Of a DNA stretch of 39,787 nt, positions 5,686-38,966 are shown in pieces; position 1 is the stretch's first letter, and every line of letters begins with the position of its first letter. The stretch lies in IMG/VR virus record IMGVR_UViG_3300028024_000017, positions 1 to 39,787 of that record. One strand, given 5' to 3'. The notes beneath the pieces were generated by a model. The model did no database searches. It was not told where the DNA came from and saw only the letters and a list, made by a program, of their open reading frames with translations. A program made the translations under genes and the position numbers. The DNA is from a virus.

Positions 5686-5820
5686 ATGACGGCCAAGGAA
5701 AATGCTGTAAATAATTATATCACTTTAATCTACATCATTAAATATCTTCGTGTAAATCAGTTTGTAAGTAGTCATAAACAGACAGACAAAATCAAACTGA
5801 ATGGACAAGCCGAAAGGCTC

Positions 5821-5890
5821 CCGTTTAAAAAAACGGCGAGTTTTTTGGCTGATTATAATGCCCTTTTCTCGCCGGAGAAAGGGCTTTTTT
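5821..5890 (+). promoter_or_regulatory. Leader attenuator before the sigma-like gene
   Basis: Three mutually exclusive hairpins are visible. First, CCGTTT (5821-5826) pairs with AAACGG (5831-5836). Second, CGGCGAG (5834-5840) is perfectly complementary to CTCGCCG (5868-5874). Third, GCCCTTTTCTC (5860-5870) pairs with GAGAAAGGGC (5875-5884) and is followed by TTTTTT, a textbook terminator. The second pairing would break the third, and the first would block the second. The terminator's 3' arm also holds the AAAGGG ribosome binding site of the gene starting at 5891. A small hairpin with a GAAA loop (AGCC/GGCT) lies just upstream, near 5809-5820. The ligand or trans factor is unknown. Confidence 0.6.
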
Positions 5891-6400
5891 ATGTCAATCA
5901 ATGATAATCAGCAGACAATCATTCAACGGTACAACGAAATCGATGGACACCCCGTCACAGAAGAAGTCTACCGGGCCTATAAGCGCCCTGCATGGGCAGA
6001 GCGCAAGCGCAAGGAACGTGAAAAACGCTGCCGTGATGAAAACGGCAACCGCTGCACCAAGAGCTGTCGTGTTTGTGATTTAGAGCGGGCGAAAAAAGGA
6101 TTGCAGCCAATAGAGCGGACAGGCAATACCCTTTCGCTGGACAAGTTCACCGAGGAAGGCTTCGAAGTAGCTGACCAAGTCGACCTTGCTGAGCTTGTGG
6201 CGGACAAGCTGCTTTTCGAAGAACTTTACGCCGCATTGGAGGAACTAGACCCTGACAACCGCAGGATCTTGGAACTCTTCAGCATCGGTAAGTCCGAGCG
6301 GGAAATTGCCGCCGATATCGGCCTGTCGCAGAAAGCCATTAACAAAAGAAAGACAAAGTTGTTCGCCCAGCTGCGGGAACGCTTGAAAGATTTCATCTAA
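5891..6400 (+). CDS. Sigma-70 region 4-like regulator
   Basis: A 169-residue protein. The C-terminal part (LEELDPDNRRILELFSIG, then SEREIAADIGLSQKAINKRK) is a sigma-70 region 4 type helix-turn-helix that should bind promoter -35 DNA. The middle carries a cysteine cluster (RCTKSCRVC) that could bind a metal. There is no region 2, so it is either a partial sigma or an RNA polymerase-associated activator like others in clostridial mobile elements. I chose ATG 5891; an upstream ATG at 5801 would place 30 codons across the attenuator hairpins. It is the first rightward gene of the prophage and a candidate for early control. Confidence 0.8.
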   Translation: MSINDNQQTIIQRYNEIDGHPVTEEVYRAYKRPAWAERKRKEREKRCRDENGNRCTKSCRVCDLERAKKGLQPIERTGNTLSLDKFTEEGFEVADQVDLAELVADKLLFEELYAALEELDPDNRRILELFSIGKSEREIAADIGLSQKAINKRKTKLFAQLRERLKDFI

Positions 6401-6404
6401 TCCA

Positions 6405-6447
6405 AGTACTCAAAACGCCCTCTGGTGTCCTGTGGATATCAGAGGGC
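6405..6447 (+). ncRNA. GTACTCAA-box RNA element, copy A
   Basis: Four bases after the sigma-like stop codon: AGTACTCAAAA, then GCCCTCTG (6417-6424) paired perfectly with CAGAGGGC (6440-6447) around a loop containing GTCCTGTGGAT. It shares the box and the loop with copies B, C and D, but no gene or ribosome binding site follows; copy B follows in tandem. It may be a degenerate or cooperative partner of B. Confidence 0.6.
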
Positions 6448-6468
6448 TCACACAAAAAAGAAACTTTC

Positions 6469-6542
6469 ATTATCGGTACTCAACCTTCTCTCTTCTGTCC
6501 TTTGGATGGTGAGGGAAGAAAAAAGAGCCCTCGGAACGGAGG
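6469..6542 (+). ncRNA. GTACTCAA-box RNA element, copy B, heading the early operon
   Basis: ATTATCGGTACTCAA (6469-6483, identical to copy D) is followed by a stem of CTTCTCTC with GAGGGAAG (6511-6518) and a loop with CTGTCCTTTGGATGGT. Downstream, CCCTC (6528-6532) can pair either back with GAGGG (6511-6515) or forward with the ribosome binding site (CCTC 6529-6532 with GAGG 6539-6542). It could therefore switch translation of the gene starting at 6550. Position upstream of a DUF2800 operon fits the published candidate 'DUF2800 RNA motif'; I cannot verify a match. Confidence 0.65.
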
Positions 6543-6549
6543 TTCAGGA

Positions 6550-6732
6550 TTGGAAACACAAGCAAAACAAATCGACACCGAATGCCGTGACCGCAAGATG
6601 GACGAAGAATTGGCGGATGTCCTCACAGCAATAAGCGTGGTGTCAAAACGCCTTGCCCGGAAGCTGACGATGCTTTCACAGCAGAACGAACAAAAGGCGG
6701 AAGGAGGAAAATCGGATGAGCAAAATGAGTGA
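6550..6732 (+). CDS. Small hypothetical phage protein, 60 aa
   Basis: The start is a TTG at 6550, seven bases after GGAGG (6538-6542); the protein begins METQAKQIDTECRDRKMDEE. An upstream ATG at 6502 lies inside the RNA element and has no ribosome binding site. It is a short, charged, helical protein (residues 18-40 amphipathic) with no known domain. Related small ORFs open the replication operon in other clostridial prophages and integrative elements. It overlaps the next gene by 17 bases, so the two are translationally linked. Confidence 0.65.
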   Translation: METQAKQIDTECRDRKMDEELADVLTAISVVSKRLARKLTMLSQQNEQKAEGGKSDEQNE

Positions 6733-11289: not shown

Positions 11290-11355
11290 AGTACTCAAAA
11301 GCCTCTTCCCTGTCCTGTGGAAGGTAGAGGGCGATGACGCCCCGAAGACAGGAGG
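11290..11355 (+). ncRNA. GTACTCAA-box RNA element, copy C
   Basis: AAGTACTCAAAA is followed by CCTCT (11302-11306) pairing with AGAGG (11326-11330) and the loop CTGTCCTGTGGAAGGT. Here the 3' arm can instead form GGGCG (11329-11333) with CGCCC (11338-11342). The loop CCTGTC (11309-11314) is complementary to GACAGG (11347-11352), which overlaps the ribosome binding site GGAGG (11351-11355) of the gene at 11363. The pairing partners differ from copies B and D but reach the same target. Confidence 0.6.
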
Positions 11356-15450: not shown

Positions 15451-16774
15451 ATATCAAACCTATGCCACAAACTTCATACTGGAACATCCCATCTCCGCAG
15501 TTTTCCTTGATATGGGACTTGGCAAGAGCGTGATCACCCTTACCTCCATCTTCGACCTCGCACTTGACAGCTTCCTAATCTGCAAAGTGCTGGTTATCGC
15601 TCCCCTGCGGGTGGCAAGGGATACATGGCCCGCAGAAATCGAGAAATGGGATCACCTTAAAGGCTTGACCTACTCAGTGGCAATCGGGAATGAAGCTGAA
15701 CGGAAAAGAGCCCTGATGAAAACTGTCGACATATACCTCATCAACCGTGAAAACGTGGACTGGCTTGTAACCAAGAGCAACCTGCCCTTCGACTACGATA
15801 TGGTGGTGGTTGATGAGCTTTCCTCCTTCAAGGCATACGGTTCAAAGCGGTTCAAGGCTCTGCGCCGTGTCCGACCGAAGGTAAAACGCATCGTGGGGCT
15901 GACAGGCACTCCTTCCGGTAACGGCCTTATGGATTTATGGGCTGAAATCGGCATTCTCGACATGGGGCAACGCCTGGGGCGCTTCATCACCCATTACCGT
16001 AACAGCTTCTTTGCCCCTGATAAGTGCAACCAGCAAATCGTTTTCAGCTATAAACCGCTGCCCGGAGCAGAGGATGAGATTTACCGCCGTATTTCCGATA
16101 TAACGATCAGCATGAAAAATACAGATTACCTCAAGATGCCGGAATGCGTGATCAACGAGATCCCCGTTCGACTGTCGGACAAAGAAAAAAAAGTCTACGA
16201 CACCATGAAAAAAGATCTGGTTCTTTCACTGGAAGGACAAGAGATTGACGCCGGAAGCGCTGCAAGCCTGTCAAACAAACTGCTGCAGATGGCTAATGGT
16301 GCTGTTTATACCGACGGTGGCTCAGTTGTCAATATCCACGACCGCAAACTGGATGCCTTAGAAGATATTCTGGAAGCTGCCAACGGCAAGCCTGTTCTAA
16401 TCGCCTACTGGTACAAGCACGACCTTCAGCGCATACTGGAACGTTTCCCCGCCGAGCGGCTGGACAGTGTTGATTCCATTAAGCGATGGAATGATGGTGA
16501 AATCCCGATAGCGGTCATCCATCCCGCTTCTGCCGGTCACGGGTTGAACCTTCAGGCCGGTGGTTCCACCCTTGTGTGGTTTGGGTTGACATGGTCGTTA
16601 GAACTTTACCAGCAAACCAATGCCCGGCTTTGGAGGCAGGGGCAGTCATCCGAAACAGTCGTCATCCACCATATCCTGACTGAGAATACAATCGATGAGC
16701 AAATAATGCGGGCGTTGATGCAAAAGGAGCGCACACAGAGCGCGTTAATTGCCGCTGTCAAAGCTAACCTGTGA
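15431..16774 (+). CDS. SNF2-family DNA helicase/translocase
   Basis: 447 residues, a compact phage SNF2 protein. Motif I is DMGLGKSVIT (about residue 27), II is VVVDELSSF (about 127), III is GLTGTPSGNG (about 157), and V-VI are ASAGHGLNLQ and QTNARLWRQGQS (about 400). Both RecA lobes are complete. It is an ATP-driven double-strand DNA translocase, likely remodelling replication or recombination structures with the adjacent VRR-NUC nuclease. ATG 15431 has GGAGG eight bases upstream, inside the VRR-NUC gene. Confidence 0.92.
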   Translation: MKYSPHEYQTYATNFILEHPISAVFLDMGLGKSVITLTSIFDLALDSFLICKVLVIAPLRVARDTWPAEIEKWDHLKGLTYSVAIGNEAERKRALMKTVDIYLINRENVDWLVTKSNLPFDYDMVVVDELSSFKAYGSKRFKALRRVRPKVKRIVGLTGTPSGNGLMDLWAEIGILDMGQRLGRFITHYRNSFFAPDKCNQQIVFSYKPLPGAEDEIYRRISDITISMKNTDYLKMPECVINEIPVRLSDKEKKVYDTMKKDLVLSLEGQEIDAGSAASLSNKLLQMANGAVYTDGGSVVNIHDRKLDALEDILEAANGKPVLIAYWYKHDLQRILERFPAERLDSVDSIKRWNDGEIPIAVIHPASAGHGLNLQAGGSTLVWFGLTWSLELYQQTNARLWRQGQSSETVVIHHILTENTIDEQIMRALMQKERTQSALIAAVKANL

Positions 16775-16838
16775 AAATCTATGGAGTCAATCAAGGGAGT
16801 CAATCCGAGAGGACATCAACTTTCCGGAGGTAGCCCTT

Positions 16839-17288
16839 ATGAACGAGCAAGAAAAAACACTAACGGCAAAGGAGTACCTCTCTCAAGCCTACCGCATCGA
16901 CCAGCGCATCACCAGCATGATATCGCAGGTACAGTCCCTTCGGGAACTGGCGGCCAAAGCGACAACCACCCTGTCGGATATGCCGAGAAGCTCGAGCCCG
17001 AACCACCACCGAATGGAGGACTTCATCACGAAGGCGTTGGATTTGGAGTCGGAAATCAACGCCGACCTCCAGCACCTCATCGATCTGAAGCACGAGGTCG
17101 TGACCATTATCAAGTGTGTGGAAAGCCCCGAACTTCAGACCCTTCTGGAACTGCGGTATTTATGCTTTCGGACTTGGGAGCAGATAGCCGTTGAGTTGTA
17201 CTACGATATCCGCCATGTCCACCGCCTGCACGGCAGGGCTTTGAACGAAGTGGAAACAATCAGGAGGTCATGTCACGAAATGTCATAG
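16839..17288 (+). CDS. DUF1492 sigma-like late activator
   Basis: 149 residues. A coiled-coil N-terminal half (SQAYRIDQRITSMISQVQSL, then residues 60-90) is followed by a sigma region 4-like helix-turn-helix (LLELRYLCFRTWEQIAVEL, then IRHVHRLHGRALNEV). DUF1492/ArpU-like proteins of Firmicute phages control late transcription. ATG 16839 has CCGGAGG upstream. Its last codons overlap the first two of three 10-base repeats in the late promoter, so the gene probably acts on the DNA at its own 3' end. Confidence 0.82.
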   Translation: MNEQEKTLTAKEYLSQAYRIDQRITSMISQVQSLRELAAKATTTLSDMPRSSSPNHHRMEDFITKALDLESEINADLQHLIDLKHEVVTIIKCVESPELQTLLELRYLCFRTWEQIAVELYYDIRHVHRLHGRALNEVETIRRSCHEMS

Positions 17289-17765: not shown

Positions 17766-18080
17766 TCATAAAATTCTAAGCCAATCGCGCCTGCCGTACA
17801 GGATTCTTTCAACGTCAACCACCTTGTTCTTCTCGTCGACGGAAAAGAACACAACGTAGTTTTTTACAATCAGCTTCCTGTATCCCATTTGGGATAACCG
17901 TTCGTCTGCGACAAGCGGACAGCGCTGACGCATATCGGACAGTCCCACCATTGCTTCTTCGAGAAGTTCCATCATATGGAGCGCCGATATGGGGGCAGAC
18001 AGCTGTGACGCAATATACCGGACAATGTCCCTGAGGTCGTTTTCGGCTGGTTCAGATACATCGACCCTATATTTCGCCAT
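17766..18080 (-). CDS. RelE/ParE-family toxin
   Basis: 104 residues. YRVDVSEPAENDLRDIVRYI is the N-terminal beta-helix pattern of ParE/RelE toxins; YRKLIVKNYVVFFSVDE and VERILYGRRDW are the conserved C-terminal strands. It may poison gyrase (ParE) or cut ribosome-bound mRNA (RelE); the sequence does not decide. It follows and overlaps its antitoxin by 14 bases on the minus strand, against every phage gene around it. Confidence 0.88.
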   Translation of the reverse strand: MAKYRVDVSEPAENDLRDIVRYIASQLSAPISALHMMELLEEAMVGLSDMRQRCPLVADERLSQMGYRKLIVKNYVVFFSVDEKNKVVDVERILYGRRDWLRIL

Positions 18081-18339
18081 CGGAAATACCCCGTTTGATA
18101 TCCTTCATGACATCTTGAAGCGGACGTTTCTTTCCGGCTTTGACAGCCGCTCTCCCTTCGTCAAGCAGCCGATAGAGTTCCAGCTTACCGCTGAGCGCTT
18201 CATAAGTTTCAATACTCATGACCGCCAAATCCCCTTGTCCGTTTTTGGTGATAAAAACAGGCTCGCGGCTTTCATGGCAGAAGGTGGAGATATCATTATA
18301 GTTATTACGCAGGTCGGTACTGGACTTAATATTTGGCAT
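18067..18339 (-). CDS. Phd/YefM-family antitoxin
   Basis: 90 residues. IKSSTDLRNNYNDISTFC and EPVFITKNGQGDLAVMS followed by TYEAL is the Phd/YefM N-terminal DNA-binding fold, with a C-terminal helix (RPLQDVMKDIKRGI) that would neutralise the toxin. ATG 18339 sits behind CGAGGAGG. A consensus promoter with a 10-base inverted repeat lies directly upstream, as expected for autoregulation. The pair probably stabilises the prophage or acts as a defence gene. Confidence 0.88.
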   Translation of the reverse strand: MPNIKSSTDLRNNYNDISTFCHESREPVFITKNGQGDLAVMSIETYEALSGKLELYRLLDEGRAAVKAGKKRPLQDVMKDIKRGISDGEI

Positions 18340-30228: not shown

Positions 30229-32475
30229 ATGGCCAATCAGGAAGTCGGCAACTTAGCGGTGCGCATCTCGTTGGATCAGTCCGGGTTTCAGGAAGGCCTG
30301 GGTCAAATTAATACCCGCCTGAAAGTGGTCCAATCGTCGTTTAAAGCCGCCAGTGCTGAGCTCGGAGGTTTTGGCAAGAGCACCGAGCAACTTAAGTTAA
30401 AATCGGATAGTTTAAACCAGCAGATTCAATTACAACAAGAAAAGGTTGAAGCTTTGACCTCAGCCTATGAACGATCCGTCGAAACCAAAGGGGCAGATGC
30501 CCGGGCATCGCAAAATCTGCAGATCAAATTAAATCTGGCCCGGGATGCTCTGGCCACAATGGAAACGGAACTGCGGAAGACGAATGAACAACTGCGTGTA
30601 CAAGCCAGCGGTTGGACAAACTTGGGTGAATCTCTGCAAACCATCAGTGAGCGTTTAAAAGGTGTCGGGGAAAAATTAACCGGTGTGGGAGAAAAATTAT
30701 CTCAAACCATCACCGCCCCAGTGCTCGGGGCCGGCGCTGCAGCTGTTAAGTTTGCCGGGGACTTTGAGGAATCCGCCAATAAAGTCGCGACGATTGCCGA
30801 TACCCAGGCGATGTCCATGGAAGATCTTAAACGCGGGGTTTTAGATCTTTCCAATACGGTCAATGTGGGTGCCACAGAACTCAATGAGGCTTTATATCAA
30901 GTGATTTCCGCGACCGGGGATACAGCCAATGCCCTGGACTATGTGGAAGTCGCAAGTAAAGCAGCCATCGGCGGATTTACTGATACGACCACAGCGATTG
31001 ACGGATTGACCACGGTGATGAATGCCTATGGCTTGAAAGGAAAAGACGCCATTCAGTCCCTCTCCGATCAAATGTTGGTCGCCCAGAACTATGGTAAAAC
31101 TACCTTTGCTGAGATTGCCGCGGGAATTGGTAATGTCATTCCGATTGCTGCTAGTCTAAACGTAAAGACGCAGGACTTGTTTGCCAGTATAGCCGTGCTC
31201 ACCAAAAACGGGATCGCCACCAGCGAGAGTATCACTGGACTCAAAGCAGCCTTGTCCAATGTCCTTAAACCGTCCAGTGATGCCGTAGACGTCTCAGCCA
31301 AACTCGGACTTGAATTTAATGCCGCTCACCTGAAAAGTGTCGGCTGGGCTAATTTTTTAACGGAGATTAAGGATAAAACCAAGGGAAATACCGAAGTCAT
31401 GGCAAAGCTGTTTGGTTCGGTTGAGGCATTAAATGCCGTGACAGTGTTAGCCTCGACCGGCTCCCAAGACTTTACCGGAGCATTGCAGGCCATGAGTCAG
31501 ACGGGAGGCGCAACAGAGAAAGCCTTTGAAACCATGAACCAAGGTATCAATGACGGCATCGATGGGATGCTCAATTCCCTAAAGAACCTTGCCATTAGTA
31601 TTGGTCAGATACTTGCTCCACCGGTTAACCAATTGATCGGAGAACTTCAAGGTCTGATCAGCTGGTTCAGTGGGTTAAGTGATGCCCAGAAAGAAACTCT
31701 CATAAAGTTCGCAGGAATTGCCGCTGCGGTAGGGCCGGTTTTGCTGGTGGTCGGTAAACTGATCACAGCTATCAGCAGTATTGCCGGCGCTTTTTCGGCG
31801 GCTTCCGGTGCGATTGCCAGTGCCGGGGGTTTGATGGCGGTGATTACCGGACCCATTGGCATCGTGACCGCGGCGGTTGTTGCTCTCGCTGCCGCAGCGT
31901 TTTTGGTCATTAAGAACTGGGGGTCAATAAAAACATTTTTTCAAGGACTATGGAAAGGTATCGAGGAAGCAACATCTGCTACTTGGTCCGGATTAACTCA
32001 GTTTTTAACAGGTATTTGGTATGGAGTTTACAATGCGGCTGCAAGTGCTTGGCAAGGCTTGGGTACCTTTTTCAGTACTTTATGGCAAGGTATAACGAGC
32101 ACAACGGTTGCAGTTTGGACGGGAATTCAGACCTTCTTCGTGAATCTCTGGAGGAGTATCGTTCAGGGAGTCATGGTGATTCTTGCTCCTTTCGCTAAGG
32201 GCTTAAATCTTATTTGGTTATCCATAAAAGATGGGGTATTTACCATGATCGAAGGGATTAAAAACTATTTCTCCGGTTGGGGAAACCTCTTAAAGAATCT
32301 GGTTCTTGGACCGATTCTTTTAATTCTGGATTTGATTACGGGTAACTTTAGTCTGTTAAAGGACGATGCGATTCATATTTTGAGTAACCTTCAAGCCGCT
32401 TTAGCTCAAATTTGGCAAGGAATCCAACAAGTGATGACAGGTACCGTTCAAGCCATGCCGGCTTTCTGTCTATGA
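30229..32475 (+). CDS. Tape measure protein, N-terminal part (frameshifted gene)
   Basis: 748 residues ending early at TGA. Residues 20-130 are coiled coil (TEQLKLKSDSLNQQIQLQQE and onward). A TP901-type core follows (FAGDFEESANKVATIADTQA, GFTDTTTAIDGLTTVMNAYG), then hydrophobic helices about 490-570 (AAVGPVLLVVGKLITAIS, VTAAVVALAAAAFLVI) and tryptophan repeats of the type W.GI..FF..LW. The same repeats resume in the next frame at 32472, so one gene of about 1,009 codons has been split by a one-base loss near 32460. Tail length determination and DNA ejection are its normal roles. Confidence 0.9.
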   Translation: MANQEVGNLAVRISLDQSGFQEGLGQINTRLKVVQSSFKAASAELGGFGKSTEQLKLKSDSLNQQIQLQQEKVEALTSAYERSVETKGADARASQNLQIKLNLARDALATMETELRKTNEQLRVQASGWTNLGESLQTISERLKGVGEKLTGVGEKLSQTITAPVLGAGAAAVKFAGDFEESANKVATIADTQAMSMEDLKRGVLDLSNTVNVGATELNEALYQVISATGDTANALDYVEVASKAAIGGFTDTTTAIDGLTTVMNAYGLKGKDAIQSLSDQMLVAQNYGKTTFAEIAAGIGNVIPIAASLNVKTQDLFASIAVLTKNGIATSESITGLKAALSNVLKPSSDAVDVSAKLGLEFNAAHLKSVGWANFLTEIKDKTKGNTEVMAKLFGSVEALNAVTVLASTGSQDFTGALQAMSQTGGATEKAFETMNQGINDGIDGMLNSLKNLAISIGQILAPPVNQLIGELQGLISWFSGLSDAQKETLIKFAGIAAAVGPVLLVVGKLITAISSIAGAFSAASGAIASAGGLMAVITGPIGIVTAAVVALAAAAFLVIKNWGSIKTFFQGLWKGIEEATSATWSGLTQFLTGIWYGVYNAAASAWQGLGTFFSTLWQGITSTTVAVWTGIQTFFVNLWRSIVQGVMVILAPFAKGLNLIWLSIKDGVFTMIEGIKNYFSGWGNLLKNLVLGPILLILDLITGNFSLLKDDAIHILSNLQAALAQIWQGIQQVMTGTVQAMPAFCL

Positions 32476-33257
32476 CTTGGCAAGGAATCAAGAATGCAGC
32501 TGTCACCCTGTGGCAAGAGCTCAGTTCATTTTTCCTCAACCTTTGGGGAGAAATCCAAACAGCGTCAACCACAGCCTGGAGTCAATTTAAAACCTGGCTG
32601 ACGGAGCTTTGGCGGCAAAGTGTTCAAGGGGCAAAACAGTTATGGACTGAACTGATTCACTGGTTTGAAGCACTACCGGAAAAACTCAACCAACTTGCGG
32701 TGGCGATGTTTACCGGGATGAAACAGGGCGTAGAAAAATCCGTAACCGGTGTGAAAAGTTCAATCAAGACTGGGATTGGTGAAGCACTTAATTGGATCAA
32801 GAGTCTCCCAAGTCAGATGTTTACCTGGGGTGTGGATATGATTGACGGATTCGTGAATGGCATCAAAAGTATGCTCTCCAAAGTCAAAAATGCAGCAGAA
32901 AGTGTTGCCGAGAGTATCCGGCGCATTTTGCATTTTTCCACACCAGATGAAGGACCGCTGGCCCATTATGAAACCTGGATGCCTGATTTTATGGCCGGAC
33001 TAGCTGCCGGGATTGAACGGAACAAGAACCTCGTAAAAAATGCAATCAGTGGTTTATCCAGCGAAATGACCTTGAATCTCAAACCTCAGAATGTTCCAAG
33101 TATCGCCGGGATGGGAACGGTTAATCAAACCTATTCTTACGGCTCACTATTACATGCAGAAAAAATCTTGATTAATAACGAGATGGATATTCAAACACTC
33201 GCTTACAAGCTGGAATTCTATCGGACCCAAGCAGCGAAGGCCAAGGGGAGTCGATAA
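32472..33257 (+). pseudogene. Tape measure protein, C-terminal part out of frame
   Basis: 261 residues in the -1 frame relative to the upstream part. It opens TWQGIKNAAVTLWQELSSFF, continuing the tryptophan repeats, then has TGIGEALNWIKSLPSQMFTW and the conserved VDGF.NGIKS and RILHFSTPDEGPL endings of tape measures. ATG 32472 overlaps the upstream TGA (ATGA), so weak reinitiation is conceivable, but no ribosome binding site is seen. A missing T in GCTTTCTG (about 32460-32466) would restore AFLSMTWQ. Confidence 0.8.
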
Positions 33258-38841: not shown

Positions 38842-38879
38842 GCCGCCGGGTGATTGATTTCACCAGGCGGCTTTTTTTG
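38841..38879 (+). terminator. Strong terminator after the lysis genes
   Basis: AGCCGCC (38841-38847) pairs with GGCGGCT (38866-38872) and inner GGTGA with TCACC, followed by seven T. It ends the late transcript. Confidence 0.9.
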
Positions 38880-38895: not shown

Positions 38896-38966
38896 ATTAT
38901 CGGTACTCAAACCGCCCTCTCCTGTCCTGTGGATGGTGAGAGGGTTAGTTGCCCTCCGATGGGAGG
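38896..38966 (+). ncRNA. GTACTCAA-box RNA element, copy D
   Basis: ATTATCGGTACTCAA (38896-38910) as in copy B, then CCCTCTC (38915-38921) paired with GAGAGGG (38938-38944) around CTGTCCTGTGGATGGT. CCTCC (38953-38957) pairs with the ribosome binding site GGAGG (38962-38966) through loop GATG. CCCTC (38952-38956) can instead pair with GAGGG (38940-38944), which would expose the ribosome binding site. This is the clearest copy for a translational switch controlling the SHOCT-like gene and recombinase. Confidence 0.7.

Follow-up and report, generated by a model that had tools for sequence, protein, structure and literature searches.

A repeat present in several copies in the window, the whole stretch of 39,787 nucleotides analysed here, probably (about 0.78, judged from comparison of sequences) provides promoters for a phage sigma-like protein encoded at 5801–6400. 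The copies overlap an RNA leader in which the state of the Shine-Dalgarno sequence (SD) would be set by where the transcript starts. Comparison with relatives establishes the two-part element, its spacing, its linkage to the protein, co-variation of box and recognition helix, and a leader hairpin. The hairpins are a second layer over promoter function. Genes for terminase, serine recombinase and phage ssDNA-binding protein mark the window as a phage or prophage record.

Repeat copies in the window

The pattern TACTCAA-N12-TGTCC occurs with zero mismatches at four sites in the window (A 6407, B 6477, C 11292, D 38904), all on the + strand. Copies A and B lie directly downstream of the sigma-like protein gene.

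5801–6400, +: sigma-like protein gene; likely start ATG 5891; sigma-70 region 4 with recognition helix GLSQKAINKRK.
6405–6450, +: copy A; AGTACTCAA 6405–6413, spacer, TGTCC 6426–6430.
6475–6500, +: copy B promoter-like element; GGTACTCAA 6475–6483, 12-nt spacer 6484–6495, TGTCC 6496–6500.
About 6507–6511, +: predicted RNA start of copy B, placed from promoter geometry.
6507–6542, +: copy B leader; GAGGG 6511–6515, able to pair with CCCTC 6528–6532; SD GGAGG 6538–6542 (GAGG 6539–6542).
6550–6732, +: gene downstream of copy B; start TTG 6550, 60-aa ORF.
11290–11315, +: copy C promoter-like element; AGTACTCAA 11290–11298, spacer, TGTCC 11311–11315.
11324–11355, +: copy C leader; hairpin GGGC-GATGAC-GCCC; SD GGAGG 11351–11355; ATG 11363 follows (71-aa ORF).
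38842–38878, +: intrinsic terminator GCCGCC...GGCGGC TTTTTTT, read in the sequence, directly upstream of copy D.
38902–38927, +: copy D promoter-like element; GGTACTCAA 38902–38910, spacer 38911–38922, TGTCC 38923–38927.
About 38934–38938, +: predicted RNA start of copy D.
38934–38966, +: copy D leader; GAGGG 38940–38944, CCCTC(C) 38952–38957, SD GGAGG 38962–38966.
38976 onwards, +: ATG 38976 (70-aa SHOCT_2 ORF), then serine recombinase from 39248.

The boxes of copy A are enclosed by a 14-bp hairpin, GCCCTCT...AGAGGGC; a start codon is absent nearby. This hairpin (window 6405–6450) persists in relative phages in which TACTCAA or TGTCC has decayed. In copy D the spacer is the 5′ arm of the main stem of a preliminary description of this DNA. 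The letters named there for copies D and B (GAGGG, then CCCTC, then GGAGG in D or GAGG in B) are present at the positions listed and in the order claimed. A search for the exact layout of copy B, GAGGG-N12-CCCTC-N6-GAGG with at most two mismatches, gives one site in the window where 0.13 would be expected. Consensus scans for a sigma-A promoter (TTGACA-N17-TATAAT) gave no match at copies A, B and D, and a scan of the + strand between 38480 and 39194 gave no sigma-A-type promoter. The terminator at 38842–38878 was missed by a simple scan and found by direct reading. Copy D is placed behind it, so that little read-through may arrive there.

Elsewhere in the window, 16749–17288 encodes another regulator, a relative of ArpU-type activators (PHROG 36) that probably serves late genes. 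A small ORF pair at 17766–18339 (− strand) resembles, by eye, a ParE/RelE toxin with antitoxin. The tape-measure-like gene 30229–33257 consists of two overlapping ORFs (30229–32475 and 32412–33257), a frameshift either real or sequencing-derived.

Sigma-like protein

The protein has an N-terminal part with conserved Cys and a C-terminal sigma-70 region 4. Region 4 was assigned by Pfam Sigma70_r4_2 (PF08281), E 3.4e-6, 27.0 bits against a cut-off of 25.7. The AF2 model predicts the helices of the C-terminal domain with pLDDT of about 90 and is moderate outside region 4 (pLDDT 70, pTM 0.37); Foldseek matches the modelled C-terminal domain to sigma −35-binding domains, ECF-like. No match to region 2 was obtained in Pfam, NCBIfam or PDB profile searches, TIGR02937 remaining below cut-off. 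The family is scarce in annotated phage records: 3 of 50,697, all below 40% identity and labelled hypothetical.

Linkage of the element to the protein

Relatives were collected in two independent ways, by the motif and by the sigma-like protein, and both gave the same picture. In related loci the element consists of GGTACTCAA, exactly 12 variable bases and TGTCC(TGTGGATGGTGAGGG), directly downstream of the region 4 gene. In almost every close relative of the protein, the gene is immediately followed by one or two copies. Among protein-fetched loci, a gap of 12 separates TGTCC from ACTCAA upstream of it in 41 of 46 cases and from TGCCAA in 9 of 12, every gap-12 case sharing its strand with the protein gene; reversed boxes, used as control, gave no spacing peak. 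In the conservation profile, drawn from a set partly fetched by the boxes themselves, two near-invariant boxes flank a low-information spacer, and the 5′ arm of the main stem is the least conserved part.

The protein is encoded in 19/20 element-bearing records and in 0/20 controls. Genomes of Anaerocolumna, Brevibacillus and Syntrophomonas (15.7 Mb in total) contain nine TACTCAA-N12-TGTCC sites, all nine within about 36 kb of the protein gene. Boxes lacking the stem also occur, in Acholeplasmataceae and in tandem arrays with as many as four units. Loci L294–L296 have as many as four TACTCAA-N12-TGTCC units in tandem behind the sigma-like gene, at intervals of about 48 bases and lacking the main stem. 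The 73-kb record G019, which holds L233, also contains a second sigma-like gene (L344), divergent and followed by another element.

Co-variation of box and recognition helix

In a second phage clade (the GGTTGCC clade) all copies have GGTTGCCAA in place of GGTACTCAA, with unchanged spacing. TACTCAA alone is found in 13 records (30 copies), GGTTGCCAA alone in 9 records (20 copies), and both together in none. The recognition helix is GLSQKAINKRK in the GGTACTCAA clade and GISHQAVGKR in the GGTTGCCAA clade. Distant relatives add further pairs of helix and box, among them PQ[KR]TINDRK with ATCCGCTCA and SQPAIHKRR with GGTTATCAA; the rule that extracted the boxes there already required a TNTC[CG]-like box, a spacer of 12 bases and a stretch resembling GAGGG. 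Boxes were extracted as 9 bases, 12 bases, [TC][GT]TC[CG] and then a GAGGG-like stretch, using the last match per locus; three loci were handled manually (L327 and L252 omitted, L331 set by hand). With the rest of region 4 removed, box distance correlates with helix distance in a partial Mantel test (r 0.43, permutation p 0.0008, 24 distinct pairs); the number of independent changes behind this co-variation is small. The likeliest role of the element is that of a promoter, given its two-part form, the linkage in 19/20 against 0/20 records, the change of box between clades and the correlation of box with helix.

Proposed mechanism

GGTACTCAA would be the −35 box, bound by region 4 of the sigma-like protein, and TGTCC a −10-like box after the fixed 12-base spacer. 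RNA would start about 10 bases past TGTCC, at the 3′ arm of the main stem. ECF promoters have two boxes about 16 bases apart and a GTC-type −10; GGTAC-N16-TGTCC has the spacing of this type, and both the start proposed here and the reading of TGTCC as a −10 are drawn by analogy with it. Transcripts from the promoter would lack the 5′ arm, in keeping with the two-part element and its spacing, so that GAGGG, at their 5′ end, could pair with CCCTC as a terminal hairpin and the SD could stay free. RNA from upstream would include the spacer; the main stem could then fold, GAGGG would be occupied, and CCCTC could cover the SD. In distant relatives the main stem carries a U-run and resembles a terminator of upstream transcription.

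Leader hairpin, main stem and SD

The pairing GAGGG:CCCTC, as put forward in the preliminary description, is strong and co-varies between relatives: −10.5 kcal/mol for own, −9.5 for swapped and −5.6 for shuffled pairings, with 0 of 5000 permutations as good. The hairpin is kept by compensating changes (GAAGGC/GCCTTC, GAAAG/CTTTC, AAAGGAU/AUCCUUU), and relatives of copy C have the co-varied GAAGGC...GCCTTC at the leader position. Most B and D relatives also have the order GAGGG, CCCTC, SD. The other pair described for copy C, CCTGTC 11309–11314 with GACAGG 11347–11352 overlapping the SD, is present in the window but is missing from the relatives of copy C, which read ...CCTTCAAGATTGGAGG there.

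In the TACTC group the main stem is weak (own −8.9, swapped −8.3, p 0.016); in distant families it is strong and co-varies (own −14.5, swapped −11.7, shuffled −9.2 kcal/mol). Some remote relatives are without it. A U-run follows it in 11/15 distant-family elements and is absent from 25/25 TACTC-type elements tested and from every window copy. Against shuffles, the fold z-score is −2.8 for D and −0.44 for B; the fold of B alone is thus no better than shuffles.

In the B and D types CCCTC is able to pair with the SD, as had been claimed. Compared with controls carrying shuffled upstream sequence, read-through RNA hides the SD more in the D class (p 0.03) and in the GGTTGCC clade (p 0.0003); B (p 0.95) and C (p 0.77) show no such excess. 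In read-through, native and shuffled-upstream RNA, opening the SD costs 9.8, 3.8 and 8.7 kcal/mol for copy D, 5.9, 3.4 and 5.6 for copy B, and 3.2, 0.4 and 5.2 for copy C. An initial contrast of read-through with native RNA (5.8 vs 2.6 kcal/mol) was rejected as decisive, being mostly reproduced by shuffled upstream sequence. A translational effect is plausible for D; for B and C it would be weak or lacking. Promoter activity and the start site are predicted.

Alternative explanations

The preliminary description implied a free-standing RNA switch, with the whole hairpin always transcribed and a factor or condition picking the main stem or GAGGG:CCCTC to set translation. All its pairings exist, the leader hairpin and, in distant families, the main stem co-vary, and folding of read-through RNA covers the SD in D and in the GGTTGCC clade. 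Such a switch is nevertheless improbable: it leaves unexplained the invariance of GGTACTCAA and TGTCC, the fixed 12-base gap, the clade-wise change of box and the link to a region 4 protein, its 5′ arm shows the lowest conservation, and the whole window has no Rfam match at gathering score. (At a loose E-value copies A and B gave chance-level Rfam matches only.) The choice between leader states is better explained by the position of the transcript start. That three copies keep the logic, as was proposed, holds for the hairpin after the element and not for the whole switch, in view of the boxes, the poorly conserved 5′ arm, the B and C controls and the unconserved C pairing. A pure RNA hairpin family was rejected because the 5′ arm is unconserved while both boxes are conserved. 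A processive antitermination RNA of the phage HK022 put site kind was also considered; the change of the box with the recognition helix argues against it.

Other readings keep the boxes and differ on the protein or the stem. The sigma-like protein could be an activator that binds the upstream box through region 4 and aids host RNA polymerase without replacing the host sigma. Region 4 alone is recognisable and region 2 has no match, as such an activator would have it; TGTCC is however unlike a sigma-A −10, and the spacing GGTAC-N16-TGTCC is ECF-type; this reading is somewhat unlikely. About equally doubtful is a promoter overlapping a terminator, the main stem chiefly stopping upstream transcription and the effect on the ribosome binding site (RBS) being incidental. 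The U-runs after co-varying stems in distant families suit it, but the TACTC-type elements and the window copies have none, and D already lies behind its own terminator. A slightly smaller chance is given to the stem being a side effect of a purine-rich start region facing a pyrimidine-rich spacer, without RNA role in the window. This accords with the z-score of B and with read-through folding of B and C, no better than with shuffled upstream sequence, and is opposed by the SD hiding in the D class and the GGTTGCC clade, the co-varying stem of distant families and the retention of the copy A hairpin where boxes have been lost. Given the real, co-varying stem in distant families, the main stem may have a role as an RNA or DNA hairpin.

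Relation to known systems and significance

In T4 genes e, soc, 49 and I-TevI a late promoter lies within an RBS-hiding hairpin; upstream transcripts fold the hairpin over the RBS, whereas transcripts from the near-RBS promoter are without the 5′ portion and are translated, and T4 late promoters use a phage sigma (PMC3014915). Here, unlike in the gene e group, one repeated element serves several operons, protein and boxes are other, and an extra middle strand, CCCTC, can pair with the transcript 5′ end or the RBS. For B. subtilis sigG a large read-through hairpin has been proposed, impossible in RNA from the sigG promoter, and a small RBS hairpin dampens translation (PMC5942855); that case is a single host gene, not a phage regulon, and is without a co-evolving box family. 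The T4 gene e group and sigG are close precedents for the layered design. Conjugative transposons of Clostridioides difficile carry genes annotated as sigma factors, with the promoter consensus stated as remaining to be identified; they are like the phage protein by description, and the paper gives no motif (PMC7438776). The phage system shares with ECF sigma promoters the two-box layout and with ECF sigma factors the −35-binding-like C-terminal domain; region 2 was not found in the phage protein. A literature search with the box letters found no relevant paper.

With about even chances, region-4-only sigma-like proteins form a widespread family in phages and other mobile elements of Firmicutes whose members each co-evolve with a −35 box of their own, set at a constant distance from a −10-like box that all share, the spacer doubling as a hairpin arm that silences upstream RNA by termination or RBS hiding. 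If the promoter reading is true, it would give a testable box for the sigma-like factor of this phage and its relatives. It would provide a natural set of matched protein helices and DNA boxes from which the recognition code of region 4 could be read. It would also be a compact design, one sequence starting new transcription and silencing old.
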